Assembly (NCBI RefSeq): GCF_030811455.1
Contig: NZ_JAUSQU010000001.1
Coordinates: 6,138,001 to 6,202,000 of the forward strand
Source of the DNA: Streptosporangium lutulentum
Lineage (GTDB): Bacteria; Actinomycetota; Actinomycetes; Streptosporangiales; Streptosporangiaceae
Length of the DNA: 64,000 nt
Direction of reading: 5' to 3'
Shown here: one piece after another, positions 18,562 through 45,882 of the stretch
Layout of the letters: each line of letters begins with the position of its first letter
How positions within the stretch are numbered: position 1 is the stretch's first letter
Position numbers and translations under genes: made by a program
Notes under the pieces: model-generated
What the model was told of the DNA's origin: nothing
The model's input: the letters and a program-made list of their open reading frames with translations, nothing else
Database searches by the model: none

Positions 18562-18946
18562 GGGTGGAGGTGGCGGGAATCGAACCCGCGTCCTTCAACT
18601 CCAAGACAGGGCTTCTCCGGGTGGAGCCTGTTGTGCTTTTCTCAGCCCCGGCGATCACACAGGCAAGACGCCGACAGGCTCAGCCACTGTTTGATTTCCC
18701 GATCTTCCCCGTGGCCGGGTCGATCGGTTGAGCCTCCTAGCGATGCCAGATCCGGGCCGGAGGCGCTCCCGGGCTGGCAGAAGTCACTCGCTGCTTAGGC
18801 GGCGAGTGCCAGGTTGCCCTGGCTGACTTCGGAGTGCGTCTTATTGGCACTTGTTGGTCGCGGTCACAGTGTTAACGAGGTTATGTCCGCAGTCCTCGAC
18901 CCGCTTCACCTGACTTGCAAAGCCAAAGTCGAAACCAGTCACCCCC
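18562..18946 (-). ncRNA. ssrA: tmRNA (transfer-messenger RNA)
   Basis: About 385 nt. The 5' end GGGGGTGACTGGTTTCGAC pairs with the 3' acceptor side ending CACCTCC-ACC, and the T-arm GCGGGTTCGATTCCCGC is intact. The tag frame at 18848-18798 reads ANKTHSEVSQGNLALAA, followed by TAA; the C-terminal LALAA is the usual ClpXP/protease degron. tmRNA rescues stalled ribosomes together with SmpB, whose gene lies upstream at 21.3 kb on the same strand. The final A of CCA appears not to be encoded. The exact ends are assigned from acceptor pairing and could shift by 1-3 bases. Confidence 0.95.
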
Positions 18947-19408: not shown

Positions 19409-21292
19409 TCACAGGGTGGGGTGCGGGCCCCGGAAGAACCGCCCCGCGATGGCCGCCCCCGCCGTGGGGTCCGGGCTCGCCGCCAGCACCGCCACCGCCA
19501 CGTCTCCCTGCCAGCCCACGAACCAGGACAGCGGCTTGCGGTCGCGGGTCGCGACGGCGGTGATTCCGTAGACGGAGCCGCCCGGAGCCGCGGCGGCACG
19601 GGCGGAACCCGCGACCACGCCGGAGCGCATGAAGATGCGGAGGGTCTCGACCGTCTTCGCGTCGAGCGGGACCGGGTTCAGCGGCTTGGGCGGCGCGGCC
19701 TCGACGGACGGGTCGAGCGTCTTCGGCTCGGTGACCAGGACGGGCGGCCGCCAGGTGCCCGAGGCGACCGCTCCCGCGACCAGCGCCATGGACAGCGGGC
19801 TGACCAGGACGTTCTGGCCGGCGATGGCTCTGGCCGTCGCCGCGTCCGTGCTCAGCGGCTTCATCGAGCCGCTGAAGGTCTTCAACGGAAGGGTCCACGG
19901 CGCCCCGATGCCGAACTGGGTGGCGCTGGCCTTCAGCTCGGAGCCTCCGATCCTGCGGGCGAGCGAGGCGAGCGCGGTCACGCACCCGCTGGCGAAGTTG
20001 GCCTGAAGGCTCGGCGTCTCCCCGACGGGCGGCGCCGCCTGATGGAACCGGGCGCCGCCGACACTGCGATCGGGGGGGCACGCGAGCTTCTGCTTGGGAT
20101 CCATCTGGGCCTTGATCAGAGCCTCGACGGACATGATCGAGAAGGTGCTTCCGGCGGGGAACTTCCCGTCGAACGCGTCTGTCTCCTGGTTGTACTCCTT
20201 GGTGGTGGAGACGGCCAGCACCTCACCGGTCGAGGCCTGGACCGCGACCAGCATGCCGGGGGTTCCGCCGCTCAACGCGGCGTCGGCGGTCTTCTGCTCC
20301 GTACGGTCGAGCGTGGTCAGGACCGGCGAGGTGGCGCGATCGGGATTCCACTTCTTGAGCTCGGTCACCTTCGTCGGATCCTTGAGATCCACGGTCACCA
20401 CGCGGGTCTCGGTCGAGCCGGTCAGGTGCTCCTGGTACGCCTTCTGCAGCCCGGTCCGGCCCACCGTGTCTCCGGCCCGCTGCGGTCCGCCGAGCTGCTG
20501 GACGAGCTCCGGGGTGACCGCGGTGACACTGCCGACGATCTGGGTGGGCGAGTCGGGTGCGAGCGACTGCGGCTGCCGGGCGATCTCGACGCCGGGAATG
20601 GCCGTGATCTGATCACCGAGCTGGGCGAACTTGGCGCGGCCGAAGGTGACGAGCGGCACCTCGATGTTGGGCCGGGCGGAGCGGATCCGGCTCAGCAGGC
20701 GATCCTGCGGGAATCCAGTGATCTTGGAGAGCCGCTCGCAGACCTCCTCCGCGTTCTTCAACGCGGCCGGGACCACACTCGCCACGTACAGGGTGGCCTG
20801 CTGCTGGAGCGGGTCACGGTGGCGGTCCAGGATCGGCTGGCGTTCCTGGGGGATGACGTCCACCGCGAAGCGCTGGCCCTCGTGGAGCTGAGGGTGGAGC
20901 ACGCTGGGCGACCAGCGCACCTTCCAGCTGCCGTCCACCAGGTGGAGCGGGAGTTTGCCGTCGTACTCCCAGAGGGGGTTGTTCTCCCCCAGGTCGACCT
21001 CGGCCCTGAAATCGGCCTCCACCTGATCCCCGGTGCCCCGGATCCCGGTGAGGTCGAACCGGAACGAGGCGGCGTCGAGCTGGAGTTTGGCGTCCTCCAG
21101 AGCCTTGCGGACCACCTTCTCGTTCCCGTCGGTGCGACTGGCCGCCTCGGCGTAGTCACCCGTCTGCCAGCCGACCAGGAAGTCACGCACCGCCTCGTGG
21201 GCCGAAGGCTCCTCCAGACACCCGGACAGCATGGGAGTCATCGCCGCCAGCGCGAGCGCGGCGGCGACGGTACGCCGAGCCTTCCCCGTCAC
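19409..21292 (-). CDS. Penicillin-binding-protein homologue with lost catalytic motifs (lipoprotein)
   Basis: 627 residues. A lipobox-type signal ends in MLSG-C (Cys25). An NTF2-like (MecA_N-type) domain covers about 30-140, a dimerisation domain about 150-320, and a transpeptidase fold about 330-620. All three active-site motifs are altered. SxxK is STFS at 382-385 (lysine lost), SxN is SGC at 435-437, and KTG is replaced around GIT at 576-578. The fold around them (PAGSTF, GQNVLVSPLSMALVAGAVASG, SWFVGWQGDVAVAV) is retained, so this is a maintained non-enzymatic protein rather than a random relic. A paralogue at 44.35 kb has all motifs intact. GTG start, 2 bases after the smpB stop, with AGGAACAGG overlapping smpB. 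It may act as a scaffold in the septal wall machinery. Confidence 0.85.
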   Translation of the reverse strand: MTGKARRTVAAALALAAMTPMLSGCLEEPSAHEAVRDFLVGWQTGDYAEAASRTDGNEKVVRKALEDAKLQLDAASFRFDLTGIRGTGDQVEADFRAEVDLGENNPLWEYDGKLPLHLVDGSWKVRWSPSVLHPQLHEGQRFAVDVIPQERQPILDRHRDPLQQQATLYVASVVPAALKNAEEVCERLSKITGFPQDRLLSRIRSARPNIEVPLVTFGRAKFAQLGDQITAIPGVEIARQPQSLAPDSPTQIVGSVTAVTPELVQQLGGPQRAGDTVGRTGLQKAYQEHLTGSTETRVVTVDLKDPTKVTELKKWNPDRATSPVLTTLDRTEQKTADAALSGGTPGMLVAVQASTGEVLAVSTTKEYNQETDAFDGKFPAGSTFSIMSVEALIKAQMDPKQKLACPPDRSVGGARFHQAAPPVGETPSLQANFASGCVTALASLARRIGGSELKASATQFGIGAPWTLPLKTFSGSMKPLSTDAATARAIAGQNVLVSPLSMALVAGAVASGTWRPPVLVTEPKTLDPSVEAAPPKPLNPVPLDAKTVETLRIFMRSGVVAGSARAAAAPGGSVYGITAVATRDRKPLSWFVGWQGDVAVAVLAASPDPTAGAAIAGRFFRGPHPTL

Positions 21293-21294
21293 GA

Positions 21295-21762
21295 TTACCT
21301 GTTCCTGTGCCTGAACTCGCGGGCCATCTCGCGCTTGGCCTGATTCTCCGCCAGCGTCTGCCGCTTGTCCCAGTCCTTCTTACCCTTGGCGAGGCCGATC
21401 TCGATTTTGGCCTTGCCGTCCTTGAAGTAGAGGGCGAGCGGCACCAGCGTGAGACCGCCTTCCTTGGTCTTGGCGACCAGCTTGGCGATCTCCTTACGGT
21501 GAAGCAGCAGCTTGCGGGTACGGCGCGCGGCGTGGTTGGTCCACGTCCCCATCGTGTAGGCGGGGATGTGGACGTTGATCAGCCAGGCCTCGCCGTCCTT
21601 GATGACGGCATAGCCGTCGAGGAGGGAGGCCCGGCCAAGACGTAGCGACTTGACCTCTGTGCCCTGCAGCACGAGACCAGCCTCGTAGGTGTCCTCGATG
21701 TGGTAATCGTGCCAGGCACGCTTGTTCTGGGCGATGACCTTCCGCCCGGTCTCACGTGGCAT
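21295..21762 (-). CDS. smpB: SsrA-binding protein
   Basis: 155-residue partner of tmRNA that delivers it to stalled ribosomes. Signature blocks: [46 protein letters not shown] and the C-terminal ribosome-probing tail [20 protein letters not shown]. Length is standard. The stop is 2 bases from the GTG of the PBP-like gene, so the pair is translationally close. The cognate ssrA lies about 2.3 kb downstream on the same strand. Confidence 0.97.
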
Positions 21763-21898: not shown

Positions 21899-22807
21899 TC
21901 AGACCCGTAGGTAACGACGGAGCGTGACGAACGACGCGAGCACACAGATGAGCACTCCGAAGACCATCGTGAGGCTGATCACCGACGCGACCGTCTCCCA
22001 CGCCAGCTCGCTGTTGTTGTTGAGGGCGACCTGCACGGCGTCGAAGAGGAACACCTTGCTGACGATCAGCAGCATCGCGGCCACCACACCGCCGATCAGG
22101 CCGGAGATGACGCCCTCCATCACGAACGGAAGCTGGATGTAGAGGTTGGAGGCACCGACCAGGCGCATGATGCCGGTCTCACGTCTTCGGTTGTAGGCCG
22201 AGAGCCGGACCGTGTTACCGATCTGAAGCGTCGCGGCGAACACCAGGATGATCGCCACCACCAGTGCCGCCCAGCGGAGTTTCTCCAGCAATCCGAAGAA
22301 CTTCTCCAGAAGCTCCTTCTGATTGATCACATTGGAGACTCCCGGGGCGCCGCTGAGCCGTTCGATCACCGCGCCGTAGGTCTCTGGATCCTTGAGCTTC
22401 ACGCGGAACGACTCGGGCATGTCATCGACCTGGATCGCCGAGAGCAGCACGGTGTTGTTGGCGTTCTGGGTCCGGAAGTTCTTGTAGGCCTCGGCCGCGT
22501 TCTCGAAGGTGACCTGCTGGACCTCCGGCATGGCCTCGATGGTCGCCTTGAGGTCCGCCTGCTCCTGCGCGTTGACGCCGCCGCTGCCCTTGCACTGCGG
22601 GAAGGCGTCGTTCTTCTTGCACAGGAAGACCGAGACCTCGACCTTGTCCGTCCAGAAGTCTCTCATGCTGGAGATCTGAGAGTTGATCATCAGGCCAACG
22701 CCCAGCAACGCCATGCCGATCGCCACGGTCACGACGACGGCGATCGTCATCGTGAGGTTACGGCGGAGGCCGATCCAGACCTCGGAGAAGATGAAGTTTG
22801 CCCGCAT
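21899..22807 (-). CDS. ftsX: Cell-division ABC transporter permease FtsX
   Basis: 302 residues with four predicted membrane spans. The first is at about 21-42 (MTIAVVVTVAIGMALLGVGL); the others cluster at 180-300. A large extracytoplasmic loop (about 45-175) contains two cysteines (FLCKKNDAFPQCKG), as in actinobacterial FtsX. With FtsE it forms a membrane complex that activates peptidoglycan hydrolases during division. MRANFIFSEVWIGLRRN is a typical family start. 32 bases separate it from ftsE upstream. Confidence 0.95.
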   Translation of the reverse strand: MRANFIFSEVWIGLRRNLTMTIAVVVTVAIGMALLGVGLMINSQISSMRDFWTDKVEVSVFLCKKNDAFPQCKGSGGVNAQEQADLKATIEAMPEVQQVTFENAAEAYKNFRTQNANNTVLLSAIQVDDMPESFRVKLKDPETYGAVIERLSGAPGVSNVINQKELLEKFFGLLEKLRWAALVVAIILVFAATLQIGNTVRLSAYNRRRETGIMRLVGASNLYIQLPFVMEGVISGLIGGVVAAMLLIVSKVFLFDAVQVALNNNSELAWETVASVISLTMVFGVLICVLASFVTLRRYLRV

Positions 22808-22839: not shown

Positions 22840-23529
22840 TCAGTACGCCTGGCCGTACACGCCACGCGACTGGTCTCGGACGATCTTGCCGTCCTCCAGT
22901 TCCACTACGCGCTTGCGCATGGAGTCGACGATGGCCGCGTCGTGAGTGGCCATGACAACCGTGGTGCCGGTCCGGTTGATCCGGTCGAGCACCTTCATGA
23001 TGCCGATACTCGTCGCGGGGTCGATGTTTCCGGTCGGTTCGTCGGCCAGCAGGATCATCGGCCGGTTGACGAACGCCCGGGCCATCGCGACCCGCTGCTG
23101 CTCACCACCGGAAAGCTCGTCGGGCATCCGGTGGGCCTTGCCTTCGAGGCCGACGAGCTCGACGACCTCGGGGACCACCTTACGGATGAATCGCCTGGGC
23201 TTGCCGATCACCTCCAGAGCGAACGCGACGTTTTCGTACACGTTCTTGTTCGGGAGCAGTCGGAAGTCCTGGAACACGCAACCAATCCGACGGCGCAGGT
23301 GCGGGATCTTGAAGTTGGACAGTCGGGCAAGATCCTTACCGGCCACGTGGATCGCACCGGAGTCGGGGCGCTCCTCCTTCAGGACCAGTCGAAGGAAGGT
23401 CGACTTCCCGGACCCCGAGGGGCCGACGAGGAATACGAACTCGCCCTTGTCGACATCGACGCTGACGTGGTCCAACGCGGGCCGGTTCTGGTTCACGTAG
23501 ACCTTGGTGACATTATCAAAATGGATCAC
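22840..23529 (-). CDS. ftsE: Cell-division ATP-binding protein FtsE
   Basis: 229-residue ABC ATPase. Walker A is GPSGSGKST, the signature [17 protein letters not shown], Walker [14 protein letters not shown], and the switch histidine lies in [10 protein letters not shown]. Partner of FtsX in the adjacent gene. The family-typical start [11 protein letters not shown] uses GTG. Two copies of CCAGTCTAGGGGG lie upstream, each giving TAGACT on this strand as a possible -10. Confidence 0.96.
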
Positions 23530-24097: not shown

Positions 24098-25216
24098 CTA
24101 CTCGTCGGCGCCCGACTCCTGGCGGCGGGTCCACCGGATCTCCGCCTCGATGAACTCGTCGAGGTCGCCGTCCAGCACCGCGCTCGGGTTGCCCGCCTCG
24201 GCGCCCGTCCGCAGGTCCTTCACGATCTGGTAGGGGTGCAGCACGTAGTTGCGGATCTGGGTGCCCCACGAGGTGGTGGACTCACCCCGGATCTCGTTCA
24301 GCGCGGCGGCCTCCTCCTGCCGCTTGCGCTCCAGCAGCTTGGACTGCAGGACCGCCATCGCGGTCGCCTTGTTCTGCAGCTGCGATCGCTCGTTCTGGCA
24401 GGAGACCACGATGCCGGTGGGCAGGTGGGTCAGGCGGACCGCGGAGTCGGTGGTGTTGACGCCCTGACCGCCGGGCCCCGACGACCGGTAGACGTCGACG
24501 CGCAGGTCGTCCTCGTTGATGTCGATGTGGTCGGTCGTCTCGACGACCGGCACCACGTCCACGCCCGCGAAGGAGGTCTGGCGGCGGCCCTGGTTGTCGA
24601 ACGGGCTGATCCGGACCAGGCGGTGGGTGCCGTGCTCGCCGCGGAGCGTGCCGTACGCGTAGGGGGCCTTGACGGTGAAGGTCGTCGACTTGATGCCGGC
24701 CTCCTCCGCGTAGGAGGTCTCGTAGACGTCCGTCGGGTAGCCCTTGCGCTCGGCCCACCGCAGATACATCCGCTGGAGCATCTGGGCCCAGTCGGCGGCG
24801 TCCACGCCGCCCGCCTGAGACTGAATCGTGACGACGGCCTCGCGGGCGTCGTACTCGCCCGAGAGCAGGGTGCGGACCTCAAGGGCTCCGACGTCGCTCT
24901 TCAGGGAGGCCAGCTCGCGCTCGGCCTCCTCGCGGGTCTCCTCGTCGTCTTCGGCGGCGGCCAGCTCGTAGAGGACGGTCAGGTCCTCCAGCCGCCGCCC
25001 CAGGGACTCGACCCTGTTGACCTCGCCCTGCAGGTAGGAGAGCCTGCTGGTGACCTTCTGGGCCCGTTCCTGGTCGTTCCACAGGTCCGGTGCGGCGGAC
25101 TGATCCTCGAGCTCCTCGATCTGCTTGCGCATCGCGTCGAGGTCGAGCACGTCCTGAATACTGTTCAGCGTGCCTCTAAGCTCGTTTATCTCTTCTGCCG
25201 GGTCGATGAGTGCCAC
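24098..25216 (-). CDS. prfB: Peptide chain release factor 2
   Basis: 372-residue class I release factor that reads UGA and UAA. The peptidyl-transferase GGQ motif ([12 protein letters not shown]) and the SPF anticodon-like motif (RISPFDNQG) are both present, separating it from RF1. The GTG start [15 protein letters not shown] gives normal length; the ORF could extend 15 codons upstream without family support. No in-frame UGA or frameshift site is seen near codon 26, so the usual prfB autoregulatory frameshift is absent, as expected in actinobacteria. Next to ftsE/ftsX, a common actinobacterial order. Confidence 0.95.
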
Positions 25217-25312
25217 GTCTACAAAGGGTACGCGACCACCAAGCCCCATTGTGTACGGCAAGCACCCGTGCCATGGCTAGCATGGGCGCGCGGGGACCAT
25301 CGGGAGGCGGAC

Positions 25313-42475: not shown

Positions 42476-43327
42476 TCAGCCACGTAACCGCTCCACGGCG
42501 GCCCGCGCGGCGGTGCCGATCACCGCGTCGGCGCGGGGCTGGTTCTGCGCGGTGCCGTACGAGCGGGTGAAGACGGCGACGGCGTAGCGCCCGCCGTCGG
42601 GGTACTCCACCACGCCGACCTCGTTCCGGATCGTGGGCAGCGTGCCGGTCTTGCCGCTGACCGCGACGTCGTCGTAGGGGAATCCGGCGGCGAGCCGGTG
42701 CGGCCAGACCTGGAGGCCGAGCAGCCTGCGCATCGAGGCGCACGACTCCGGGGAGGCCGCCTCGTCGCGCCAGATCATGCCGAGCAGCCGGGTCATGTCA
42801 CGCGGGGTGCTCCGGTTCGTGCGTGCCGGGTCGAGCACCCGGAGCCGGGAGATCAGGACGGGGTCGGTGGACATCTCCTCCTCCCCCGCGTCCTCGACCA
42901 TGCTGGAGAACAGCTCTCGGCAGTCGTGCTCGACCCACGTGCGGTCCAGTCCGAAGGCGGCCAGCATGGTGTTGACCGCCGGCAGGCCGATCCTGTCGAG
43001 CACGGCGTCGGCGGCGGTGTTGTCGCTCACCGCGATCATCAGGTAGGTCAGGTCGCGCAGGGACAGCGTCACGTCGTCGGTCATCACCGACACTCCGGTG
43101 GACCCGGCAGTGTGGCGATCCGCCATAATCGTGACCCGTTCGGCCGGATCCAGCAGTCTCCGGTCCACCTGCCGGAAGAACTCCACCAGCAGCGCCACCT
43201 TGAACACCGAGGCGACGACCACGGACTCGTCGGCGCCGTGGGCGACCTCGGCGCCGGTGTCGAGGTCCACCACATGCAGGAACCCGGTCACCCCGGCCGT
43301 GCGGAACAGGCCCTCGATGGCGGTCAT
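42476..43327 (-). CDS. Class A beta-lactamase-like serine hydrolase, no signal peptide
   Basis: 283 residues. SVFK at 40-43 (SxxK), SDN in AVSDNTAAD, and KTG in AVSGKTGTLP are intact, giving the active-site frame of class A beta-lactamases. However, no Glu166-type ExxLN omega-loop motif is visible between FGLDRTWVEHDC and STPRDMTRLL, and there is no export signal at the chosen start. It may be a cytoplasmic amidohydrolase or esterase of the Beta-lactamase2 group rather than a resistance enzyme. The start ATG overlaps the stop of the LysR regulator (ATGA), so the two are co-translated. Confidence 0.82.
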   Translation of the reverse strand: MTAIEGLFRTAGVTGFLHVVDLDTGAEVAHGADESVVVASVFKVALLVEFFRQVDRRLLDPAERVTIMADRHTAGSTGVSVMTDDVTLSLRDLTYLMIAVSDNTAADAVLDRIGLPAVNTMLAAFGLDRTWVEHDCRELFSSMVEDAGEEEMSTDPVLISRLRVLDPARTNRSTPRDMTRLLGMIWRDEAASPESCASMRRLLGLQVWPHRLAAGFPYDDVAVSGKTGTLPTIRNEVGVVEYPDGGRYAVAVFTRSYGTAQNQPRADAVIGTAARAAVERLRG

Positions 43328-44244
43328 GCGAGGAATCCGGAGGCCGGCCTGGCCCGCACCCTCCGTGCCGGCACCGCTTCGTCGTCGGTCATCCCGGCCT
43401 TCTCCCTCAGCACTCGTACGGCCACCGTCCCGAAGGCTACGGCAGCGTCCCCGGCCTCCCCCCGCCAGGCGGTCGACACCCGCCAGGCGAGCGGGTTTCC
43501 CAGCAACGGCCGCCAGGATAATCCCGGCAGGTCGACCCTGGGCCCGAAGGCGACGGCCGTGCCGGCCAGGACCAGCCCGAGGGTCTGCGCCTCGTGCACC
43601 TCGTCCGGGACGAACCCGTGGCGGCGGCACTCGGCGAGGGTCTCCTCGTGCAGTCCCGGTTCGCGGGGGAAGAGGACAAGCTGCTGACCGGCGAGGTCGG
43701 CGAGGTGCACCGACGACAGAGCCGCGAGCGGATCGGTCTCGGCCACCACCACGCCGGGGCGCTGGACGAGCACCGGGCCGAAGCTCAGCCCGGGGGCGGT
43801 CACCGGGTGGCGTACCACGCCCATGTCCAGGGTGCCGCCGGTGAGCGCGGCGACCTGGTCCGCGCTCCACATCTCGGACGGCGCCGGCCGTACCTCGGGC
43901 ATGCGTTCCCTGAACCCGGCGATCAGCGCCGCGATCACCGAGGATCCCAGGTCGGGCGGGACTCCGACCCGCAGTACCGTGTTCTCCCCGCGCCCGGCCA
44001 GATCGCGCAGCCGGTCCACCCTCGCGACGATCTCGCGGGCCTCGGCCAGCAGCAGCCGCCCCGGTTCGGTGAGCCGGACGTGACGGCTGGAGCGGTCGAA
44101 CAGCCGCACGCCGAGCTCCTCCTCCAGCCTCCGGATGCGCTGGCTGAGTGGCGGCTGAGCCATGCCGAGCCGGATCGCCGCGTTGCCGAAGTGGAGTTCC
44201 TCGGCGACGACGGTGAAGTAGCGCAGGTGCCGCACGAGGTCCAT
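43324..44244 (-). CDS. LysR-family transcriptional regulator
   Basis: 306 residues: winged helix MDLVRHLRYFTVVAEELHFGNAAIRLGMAQPPLSQRIRRLEEELGVRLF, then the co-inducer-binding fold from about 90. It is co-translated with the beta-lactamase-like gene and divergent from a functional penicillin-binding protein gene with 105 bases between. The geometry recalls AmpR-AmpC-type control, but the effector is unknown; a wall fragment or beta-lactam cue is inference. Direct repeats GGATATCAA in the divergent spacer are candidate binding sites. Confidence 0.9.
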   Translation of the reverse strand: MDLVRHLRYFTVVAEELHFGNAAIRLGMAQPPLSQRIRRLEEELGVRLFDRSSRHVRLTEPGRLLLAEAREIVARVDRLRDLAGRGENTVLRVGVPPDLGSSVIAALIAGFRERMPEVRPAPSEMWSADQVAALTGGTLDMGVVRHPVTAPGLSFGPVLVQRPGVVVAETDPLAALSSVHLADLAGQQLVLFPREPGLHEETLAECRRHGFVPDEVHEAQTLGLVLAGTAVAFGPRVDLPGLSWRPLLGNPLAWRVSTAWRGEAGDAAVAFGTVAVRVLREKAGMTDDEAVPARRVRARPASGFLA

Positions 44245-44265
44245 GAGCAGCGACTATACCAATCC

Positions 44266-44291
44266 GGATATCAACTGTATTTGGATATCAA
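44266..44291. promoter_or_regulatory. Direct-repeat operator candidate in the LysR/PBP spacer
   Basis: GGATATCAA at 44266-44274 and 44283-44291, 17 bases from start to start, within a strongly AT-rich stretch between divergent genes. GATATC in each copy is itself palindromic. LysR proteins bind such spaced sites to regulate both directions. Confidence 0.5.
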
Positions 44292-44349
44292 TATTGGACA
44301 TATAGGTCACCCCTCTGTTCTTCTCGACCGGGAGAGACAAGGGGGACGC

Positions 44350-45882
44350 ATGAAACGCAGACGTCTGGCAGGGGTGGCGGCGCTGATACTGGTTCCGGTC
44401 GCCGCGGCCGGCGCGGGGATGTGGGTGCTGCACAGTACGGGGTCGGCCGAGGAGACGGCCCGGGACTTCCTGGCCGCCTGGGGCAGGCAGGACTACCCGG
44501 CGATGCGGGCGCTCACGGTCGAGCCGCCGGGCGACTTCGACCGCTGGTACACGCGGTTCCGGACCGACCTGAAGGTGTCGGGGGCCGACTTCGAGGTCAC
44601 GGGGAGCACGGATTCCAAGGTCGCCTTCCACGCGACGCTGAAGGGGCCGGTGAACTGGTCCTACGACGGCTCGCTGACCCTGGTCGAGCACGACCGGGCC
44701 TGGCGGGTGAAGTGGAGCCCCGCGGCCGTTTACCCCCGGCTCAAGCCGGGGCTGAGGATCAAAACCGTGCTGGTCAAGGCCGAGCAGGCGCCGATCCTGG
44801 CCGCCGACGGGACCCGGATCGACACCCCGGACGCGCCGGGTTCGGTGCAGCAGCTGGTCGAAGGGCTCAAGGAGCGGTACGGCTCCCGCCTCACCGGTAC
44901 CTCCTCGGCCCGGGTGGACCTTCTCCAGGGGACTGAGCGGGTCGCCACGCTCGCCACCGCCGGCGCGAAGGCGGGCGAGGAACTGCGGACCACCGTCGAC
45001 CTGCGAGTCCACCGTGCCGCGGCGAAGGCCCTGGACGCGGTGGACAAGCCCGCCTCCCTGGTCGCGCTCCGGCCCTCGACCGGCGAGATCCTGGCCGTGG
45101 TCAACAAACCCGGTGGGTTCAACCGGGCGCTGCTGGGCCAGTATCCGCCGGGTTCCACCTTCAAGGTGGTCACGGCGTCGGCCCTGATCGCCGACGGCAT
45201 GACCGCCGACGAGAGCGTGCCCTGCCCGGCCGAGCGGAACATCGGCGGCTTCGCCTTCCACAACGCCGGGTTCGAGGACTACGGCACGATCCCGCTGCGC
45301 GAGGCGTTCGCGCACTCGTGCAACACCACGTTCGGGCAGCTGAGCGTGGACCGGCTCGGCGGTGAGCGATTGGCCTCCGTGGCCGCCGGCTTCGGGTTCG
45401 AGGGACCGGTGGACCCCGGCGTGCCCGCCGTACGGGCGCGGTTCCCCGTCCCGCGGGACGACACCGACCTCGCGTCGGCCTCGATCGGGCAGGGGCGTGT
45501 CCTGACGAGCCCGTTGAACATGGCCACCGTCGCCGCGGCGATCGCCGACGGCTCCTGGCGCCCGCCCCGGCTCGTGGACGCGGCCCTGCTGCCTGCGGCC
45601 AGGCCGAGGAAGCTGGAACCCGCGGTGGTGCGGGCGTTGCGCACGCTGATGCCCGCGGTGGTGGTGGAGGGCACCGCGAGCGAGGTCTCCTTCCCCTCCG
45701 GTACGGCGGGCAAGACCGGAACCGCCGAGTTCGGCTCGGGCAGGCAGCCTCCCTCGCACTCCTGGTTCATCGGCTACCGGGGTGACCTGGCGTTCTCGGT
45801 GATCGTGGAAGGCGGAGGCGCCGGCGCCGCGGTGGCCGCGCCCGTCGCCGGCCGCTTCCTCACCGCCCTCGCCGGCCCCTGA
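44350..45882 (+). CDS. Penicillin-binding protein transpeptidase (MecA_N-type, catalytically intact)
   Basis: 510 residues. N-terminal membrane anchor (about 5-27), an NTF2-like MecA_N domain (about 32-140), a short dimerisation part and a transpeptidase domain with STFK (269-272), SCN (323-325) and KTG (455-457). It cross-links peptidoglycan at the cell surface. It is 117 residues shorter than the degenerate homologue at 19.4 kb, mainly through loss of most of the dimerisation segment. The start has AAGGGGG before ATG. Location next to LysR and a beta-lactamase-like gene suggests regulated expression under wall stress. Confidence 0.9.
   Translation: MKRRRLAGVAALILVPVAAAGAGMWVLHSTGSAEETARDFLAAWGRQDYPAMRALTVEPPGDFDRWYTRFRTDLKVSGADFEVTGSTDSKVAFHATLKGPVNWSYDGSLTLVEHDRAWRVKWSPAAVYPRLKPGLRIKTVLVKAEQAPILAADGTRIDTPDAPGSVQQLVEGLKERYGSRLTGTSSARVDLLQGTERVATLATAGAKAGEELRTTVDLRVHRAAAKALDAVDKPASLVALRPSTGEILAVVNKPGGFNRALLGQYPPGSTFKVVTASALIADGMTADESVPCPAERNIGGFAFHNAGFEDYGTIPLREAFAHSCNTTFGQLSVDRLGGERLASVAAGFGFEGPVDPGVPAVRARFPVPRDDTDLASASIGQGRVLTSPLNMATVAAAIADGSWRPPRLVDAALLPAARPRKLEPAVVRALRTLMPAVVVEGTASEVSFPSGTAGKTGTAEFGSGRQPPSHSWFIGYRGDLAFSVIVEGGGAGAAVAAPVAGRFLTALAGP

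Follow-up and report, generated by a model that had tools for sequence, protein, structure and literature searches.

A catalytically dead PBP2a-type lipoprotein retained beside smpB and ftsEX across most of an actinomycete order

Immediately after smpB, in the ftsE/ftsX neighborhood of Streptosporangium lutulentum, lies a gene for a penicillin-binding protein (PBP) in which none of the three catalytic motifs can be recognized. Is this protein a locally damaged enzyme, or has a pseudoenzyme been retained at this locus, and in what role? We addressed this question within the window (the whole 64,000-nucleotide stretch of DNA analyzed here), in the rest of the genome, and across related genomes. 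The first-pass annotation of this DNA had placed the start of the gene two bases past smpB and near ftsE and ftsX, and the coordinates confirm this, giving the gene order prfB-ftsE-ftsX-smpB-pbp-ssrA:

24098..25261, minus strand: prfB, with PCRF and RF-1 domains (start codon uncertain)
22840..23529, minus strand: ftsE (ABC_tran)
21899..22807, minus strand: ftsX, with an FtsX_ECD domain
21295..21762, minus strand: smpB (PF01668, 1.4e-61), two bases upstream of the pseudo-PBP gene
19409..21292, minus strand: pseudo-PBP lipoprotein gene (627 aa, GTG start at 21292)
18563..18946, minus strand: ssrA (tmRNA; ARAGORN), downstream of the pseudo-PBP gene

A PBP2a-type fold and its catalytic positions

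Pfam analysis of the protein found all three domains of PBP2a, in the same order. The domains, motifs and the paralogue used for comparison are:

21218..21220, minus strand: lipobox cysteine C25 (LSGC), with a cysteine aligned in 96/111 dead orthologues
20873..21205, minus strand: MecA_N domain (NTF2-like), residues 30-140 (Pfam, 1.2e-12)
20987..20995, minus strand: DLG motif, residues 100-102, a candidate interaction loop
20387..20851, minus strand: PBP_dimer domain (pedestal), residues 148-302 (Pfam, 3.1e-12)
19430..20257, minus strand: transpeptidase-fold domain, residues 346-621, catalytically dead (Pfam, 1.3e-24)
20138..20149, minus strand: STFS (382-385) in place of SxxK, aligned with STFK
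19979..19987, minus strand: GCV (G436-C437-V438) in place of SxN (SCN), by alignment
19556..19564, minus strand: ITA (I577-T578-A579) in place of KTG, by alignment
44350..45882, plus strand: intact paralogue with MecA_N and transpeptidase domains and with STFK, SCN and KTG, for comparison only

The presence of PF00905 together with PBP_dimer (PF03717), and without a transglycosylase domain, places the protein among the class B PBPs as a fold family, and MecA_N (PF05223) ahead of these two domains, along with matches to PBP2a and PBP5, places it in the PBP2a-type subgroup. As an enzyme, a class B PBP is defined by SxxK, SxN and KTG, and these are missing; the window protein is thus PBP2a-type by domain order and fold, but lacks the residues that define an active PBP. 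It had been claimed that the fold is kept despite the loss, and this is upheld by the AlphaFold2 model (pLDDT 88.6, pTM 0.83), for which the best Foldseek match was PBP2a over the full length (E 1.9e-33, TM 0.64). The best PDB profile matches were 7bn9, PBP5 and PBP2a, and VIA-align gave Z scores of up to 41.8 in rows that span residues 139-627 only, with MecA_N lying outside them. PBP2a, PBP5fm and B. subtilis PBP3 share the three-domain order and full-length fold of the window protein, but they are active transpeptidases, whereas the window protein has neither SxxK, SxN nor KTG.

Alignment confirmed STFK, SCN and KTG in the paralogue at 44.35 kb and bore out the loss of all three motifs in the window protein (STFS, GCV and ITA), while the initial reading of the second one as SGC proved to be one residue out of register. 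A misalignment masking another SxxK was rejected, as the S..K tetrads at residues 362 and 451 are kept in only 7/111 and 2/111 dead copies, respectively. The whole genome yielded 15 transpeptidase-domain matches, and the motif comparison within the genome comprised the seven other same-fold proteins (L001-L007), with L008-L010 (L008 being class A) and L012-L015 outside it. All seven aligned with SxxK and with KTG or KSG, the SxN motif of L004 reading SCD. Because the SxxK lysine, the SxN asparagine and KTG are missing, acylation of the window protein by beta-lactams is not expected from its sequence.

The intact MecA_N-type PBP (plus strand) is adjoined by a class A beta-lactamase-like gene (PF13354, 7.3e-60) and a LysR regulator (minus strand), and this region (42476-45882) looks like a beta-lactam response module.

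Inheritance of the loss and of the locus

To follow the motifs across relatives, we assembled orthologues from loci L016-L191, requiring smpB in the flank and removing duplicates, which left 116 distinct sequences; paralogues were dropped ahead of this count, as were homologues whose retrieved flank contained no smpB, the intact L187 and L188 among them. These 116 comprise 111 dead and five intact copies. The SxxK lysine is present in 0/111 dead orthologues (S 64, T 32, G 13, A 1 and Q 1 at that position), as is the KTG lysine (V 45, Q 39, I 25 and L 2). The nucleophile serine is left in 17/111 (T43, S17, M14, E13 and others at its position), and a complete SxN is found in a single copy (L156), the asparagine position being V51, T23, A12, G10 and others. 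The C-terminal part of the fold is retained in 111/111. Since both lysines are gone in every distinct dead orthologue, chance is excluded, and a local mutation or sequencing error was rejected on the same count. The earlier suggestion of a pseudo-enzyme is therefore borne out, the lost motifs being conserved as lost throughout the clade (111/116 smpB-adjacent orthologues), and pseudoenzyme status is strongly supported for the window protein.

In one sub-lineage (L104, L105, L106 and L152-L160) the motifs are partly degraded (QTG, LCN, SCT), and these sequences suggest a stepwise decay following the loss of the SxxK lysine.

A protein search gave matches in 16/16 genomes of the genus and 297/297 genomes of the GTDB family (E<=1e-30, paralogues included). 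As possible exceptions, 20 further genomes were picked for their weakest matches. At 1e-100, 19 of them gave a match, and every copy in which the motif is readable is dead; three of these 19 run into, or close to, the end of a contig, the L296 copy is spread over two frames, and L297-L299 were left out of the 19. Two candidates for gene-less genomes were rejected: in G070 the sole match is a paralogue, but the contig stops 195 bases past smpB, and G117 has no match at 1e-100, but no smpB match either, in a fragmented assembly.

The five intact smpB-linked orthologues (L149-L151, L108 and L109) share the locus and the lipobox cysteine with the dead copies but, unlike the window protein, carry STFK, SCN and KTG; the same three domains were found in the three that were scanned, namely L149 and those at the L108 place (L136) and the L109 place (L137). 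Three of the five (L149, L150 and L151) belong to one order-mate family and the other two to two more distant families of the same class, whereas in a second order-mate family (L148) the copy is dead already. Homologues at this locus that are still intact, which had been named as the finding that would point to a local mutation, do occur (5/116), but all lie outside the dead clade, and they represent the ancestral state. A single branch (SH-aLRT 100) sets the 47 dead rows apart from all others in a 74-protein tree, and a tree built from pedestal and linker columns only (56 rows, 32 dead) gives the same split with a support of 98. One loss is enough to explain this, which shows that catalysis was lost a single time, in an ancestor common to most of the order to which the window belongs, after one intact order-mate family had branched off.

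Among 80 named records, the smpB-adjacent copy of an Acidothermales MAG is intact, while dead copies stand next to smpB in Streptosporangium sp. KLBMP 9127, Microtetraspora, Planotetraspora (two records), Sphaerisporangium rufum, Allonocardiopsis opalescens and four MAGs. A Nonomuraea record (L269) has a dead copy with no smpB within the stretch examined, and in the remaining 68 the motifs are intact and the flank lacks smpB. Certain genomes of the dead clade encode, in addition, a homologue whose motifs are intact and whose flank lacks smpB (L187, L188, L297-L299 and L268, the last from Actinomadura kijaniata).

The linkage to smpB and ftsEX proved to be conserved as well, with smpB immediately before the gene in 56/56 loci and ftsX in 55/56. 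Downstream, ssrA follows in 48/56 loci (ARAGORN found no tmRNA in the other eight, the stretches examined being short), and the complete prfB-ftsE-ftsX-smpB-pbp-ssrA order is visible in 33/56, again limited by short stretches; in the subset L060-L099, ssrA is downstream on the same strand in 36/40 loci. Among the tmRNAs of the window (18563-18946) and of L060-L099, the sub-lineage of the window has long tag peptides (ANKTHSEVSQGNLALAA) and other sub-lineages have short ones (ANSKRTEFALAA). An S41/PDZ C-terminal processing protease lies between ftsX and smpB at L081, L086, L087, L089, L137 and L148; it is absent from that place in the window, and spacers of ~1.2 kb occur in further loci. The extra gene in this spacer was considered as an FtsEX-dependent hydrolase and rejected, as six of the seven scanned are these proteases; the frame of the seventh (L097) gave no family match.

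This neighborhood invites the reading that the pseudo-PBP is a dedicated extracellular FtsEX adaptor gating a septal wall hydrolase, since the gene shares strand and neighborhood with ftsE-ftsX and smpB, and FtsX has an extracellular domain. We consider it unlikely. The intact orthologues L136, L137 and L149-L151 sit in an identical neighborhood, so that the linkage is older than the loss and provides no evidence for a new role; moreover, smpB, and in some relatives also the S41 protease, separates the gene from ftsX.

Selective constraint in the dead clade

The distribution of constraint along the protein bears on what has been retained. Within the genus, median dN/dS values (NG86) of the dead protein are 0.276 for MecA_N, 0.445 for PBP_dimer and 0.442 for the transpeptidase domain, with 0.067 for smpB; at the very high GC3 of the control set (0.91-0.98), these ratios are relative only. 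On this relative scale they indicate purifying selection, here on a protein in which the catalytic residues are lost, the predicted fold is kept, and the loss is inherited clade-wide from an active ancestor. The active L005-type paralogue gave the reverse distribution, with 0.501 for MecA_N and 0.325 for the transpeptidase domain (0.395 over a wider matched region).

Pairwise identities agree with this pattern. The MecA_N/transpeptidase identity ratio is 1.15 in 68 dead representatives and exceeds 1 in 81% of 2278 pairs, versus 0.73, 0.53 and 0.67 in three active sets, where it exceeds 1 in 0/300, 0/210 and 0/10 pairs (0/520 in total). The inversion persists within bins of transpeptidase identity, and in the intact smpB-linked orthologues conservation of the transpeptidase domain exceeds that of MecA_N. 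At the level of sequence comparison, this shows that constraint moved from the transpeptidase domain to MecA_N in the dead clade, making MecA_N the most constrained domain of the window protein, unlike in PBP2a-type enzymes. Thirty-one columns fixed in active copies are lost in the dead clade, 24 of them within the transpeptidase domain and including the catalytic motifs, whereas 42 columns are conserved in the dead clade only, 31 of them N-terminal of that domain; these gained columns could partly reflect the sampling of one order. The DLG motif is found in 102/111 dead and 0/79 active copies; among the 19 weakest-scoring copies it is present in ten and missing in nine, and is thus not universal.

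Constraint also bears on a sensor or decoy, in which the dead pocket would bind stem peptide or lipid II non-covalently and signal or shield. In its favor, dead and active copies have many core residues in common, and the fold persists. However, a retained binding site should be conserved, and the old pocket is not: the catalytic positions vary freely in the clade, with conservation below that of the remaining transpeptidase domain, and the KTG threonine and glycine and a conserved QG are also gone. With the gained constraint mostly N-terminal, the earlier proposal that the protein binds wall precursors without cross-linking them did not hold, and we regard a substrate sensor as quite improbable.

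A new catalytic activity using other residues could be imagined from C405 and C437, both present in 111/111 dead copies, but they are equally present in 5/5 intact orthologues and so look structural; with the two other S..K tetrads as rarely kept as noted above, such an activity seems highly implausible.

The lipobox cysteine is missing in 15/111 dead orthologues (L170-L172 and L174-L185), and each of the six of these that were read has a hydrophobic stretch ahead of MecA_N in its place, so that membrane tethering appears, from these sequences, to be retained. In the six, this stretch is mostly preceded by a long basic or proline-rich stretch with an uncertain start codon. A functionless decaying relic, held by its place between smpB and ssrA, would fit the somewhat faster evolution of the dead transpeptidase domain relative to that of the active paralogue (0.442 vs 0.325) and the split frame at L296, but it is very hard to reconcile with an ancient and single loss after which the C-terminal fold persists in every dead copy, a lipobox or hydrophobic anchor is retained in the copies read, and MecA_N is under strong constraint.

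A proposed non-catalytic role in wall synthesis

We favor, with a probability of roughly 0.55, the reading that a PBP2a-type PBP that died once has been kept in the wall machinery as a structural or allosteric component that is tethered to the membrane, lacks catalysis and acts through MecA_N. The ancestor would have been a PBP2a-type class B PBP already linked to ftsEX-smpB; after its single loss of catalysis, the gene was retained with an open frame, apparently as a membrane-tethered pseudoenzyme. Outside the membrane, the pseudo-PBP may act as a subunit of the wall-synthesis (probably septal) machinery, with its key contacts made via MecA_N and the pedestal and the dead transpeptidase fold serving as a platform, while cross-linking would be supplied by active PBPs encoded elsewhere in the genome. 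Both partner and role are what we infer here: judging from the family, the N-terminal domain would make protein contacts, and FtsEX is a candidate partner by neighborhood only.

A more specific proposal, which we put forward tentatively and at somewhat less than even odds, is that of a new order-wide family of non-catalytic PBPs. Here MecA_N, with its clade-typical DLG loop, would be the functional end, docking onto a septal partner (the FtsX extracellular domain, a SEDS polymerase or a class A PBP) and switching wall synthesis or hydrolysis, with the dead transpeptidase carried along as a scaffold. Class B PBPs usually contact SEDS polymerases by their transmembrane helix; the pseudo-PBP has a lipid anchor and lacks that helix, which counts against the reading favored above. 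In the open-access literature, the scope of our search (subscription papers lying outside it), we found no description of an order-wide pseudo-PBP, and we know of none.

Several known systems bear a partial resemblance to this one. Catalytically inactive PBP2B supports division in B. subtilis (PMC5656894), and inactive C. difficile SpoVD (S311A) retains partial function, for which its SEDS partner is required (PMC12713402). Both are dead class B PBPs that keep a structural or SEDS-activating role, as proposed here, but they are laboratory point mutants of active enzymes, whereas the window protein is a natural, lineage-wide pseudoenzyme. PBP-lipo of M. abscessus (PMC9170245) is likewise a class B PBP of an actinomycete, septal and named as a lipoprotein, but its S364A variant fails to complement, so that catalysis is required and function cannot be taken for granted in a lipoprotein PBP that is dead. 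Finally, 13 Streptomyces PBPs naturally without SXXK have been listed (PMC6273383); these are class A, mostly keep SxN and KTG, and are still expected to function as PBPs in that review.

Non-catalytic roles of class B PBPs have so far been inferred from engineered dead mutants. At this locus, evolution has performed the dead-PBP experiment a single time and preserved its outcome through most of an order, intact orthologues at the same locus serving as controls, and the scaffold function of a PBP thus becomes separately testable. The working part indicated is MecA_N, a domain whose discussion has generally been confined to PBP2a and beta-lactam resistance.
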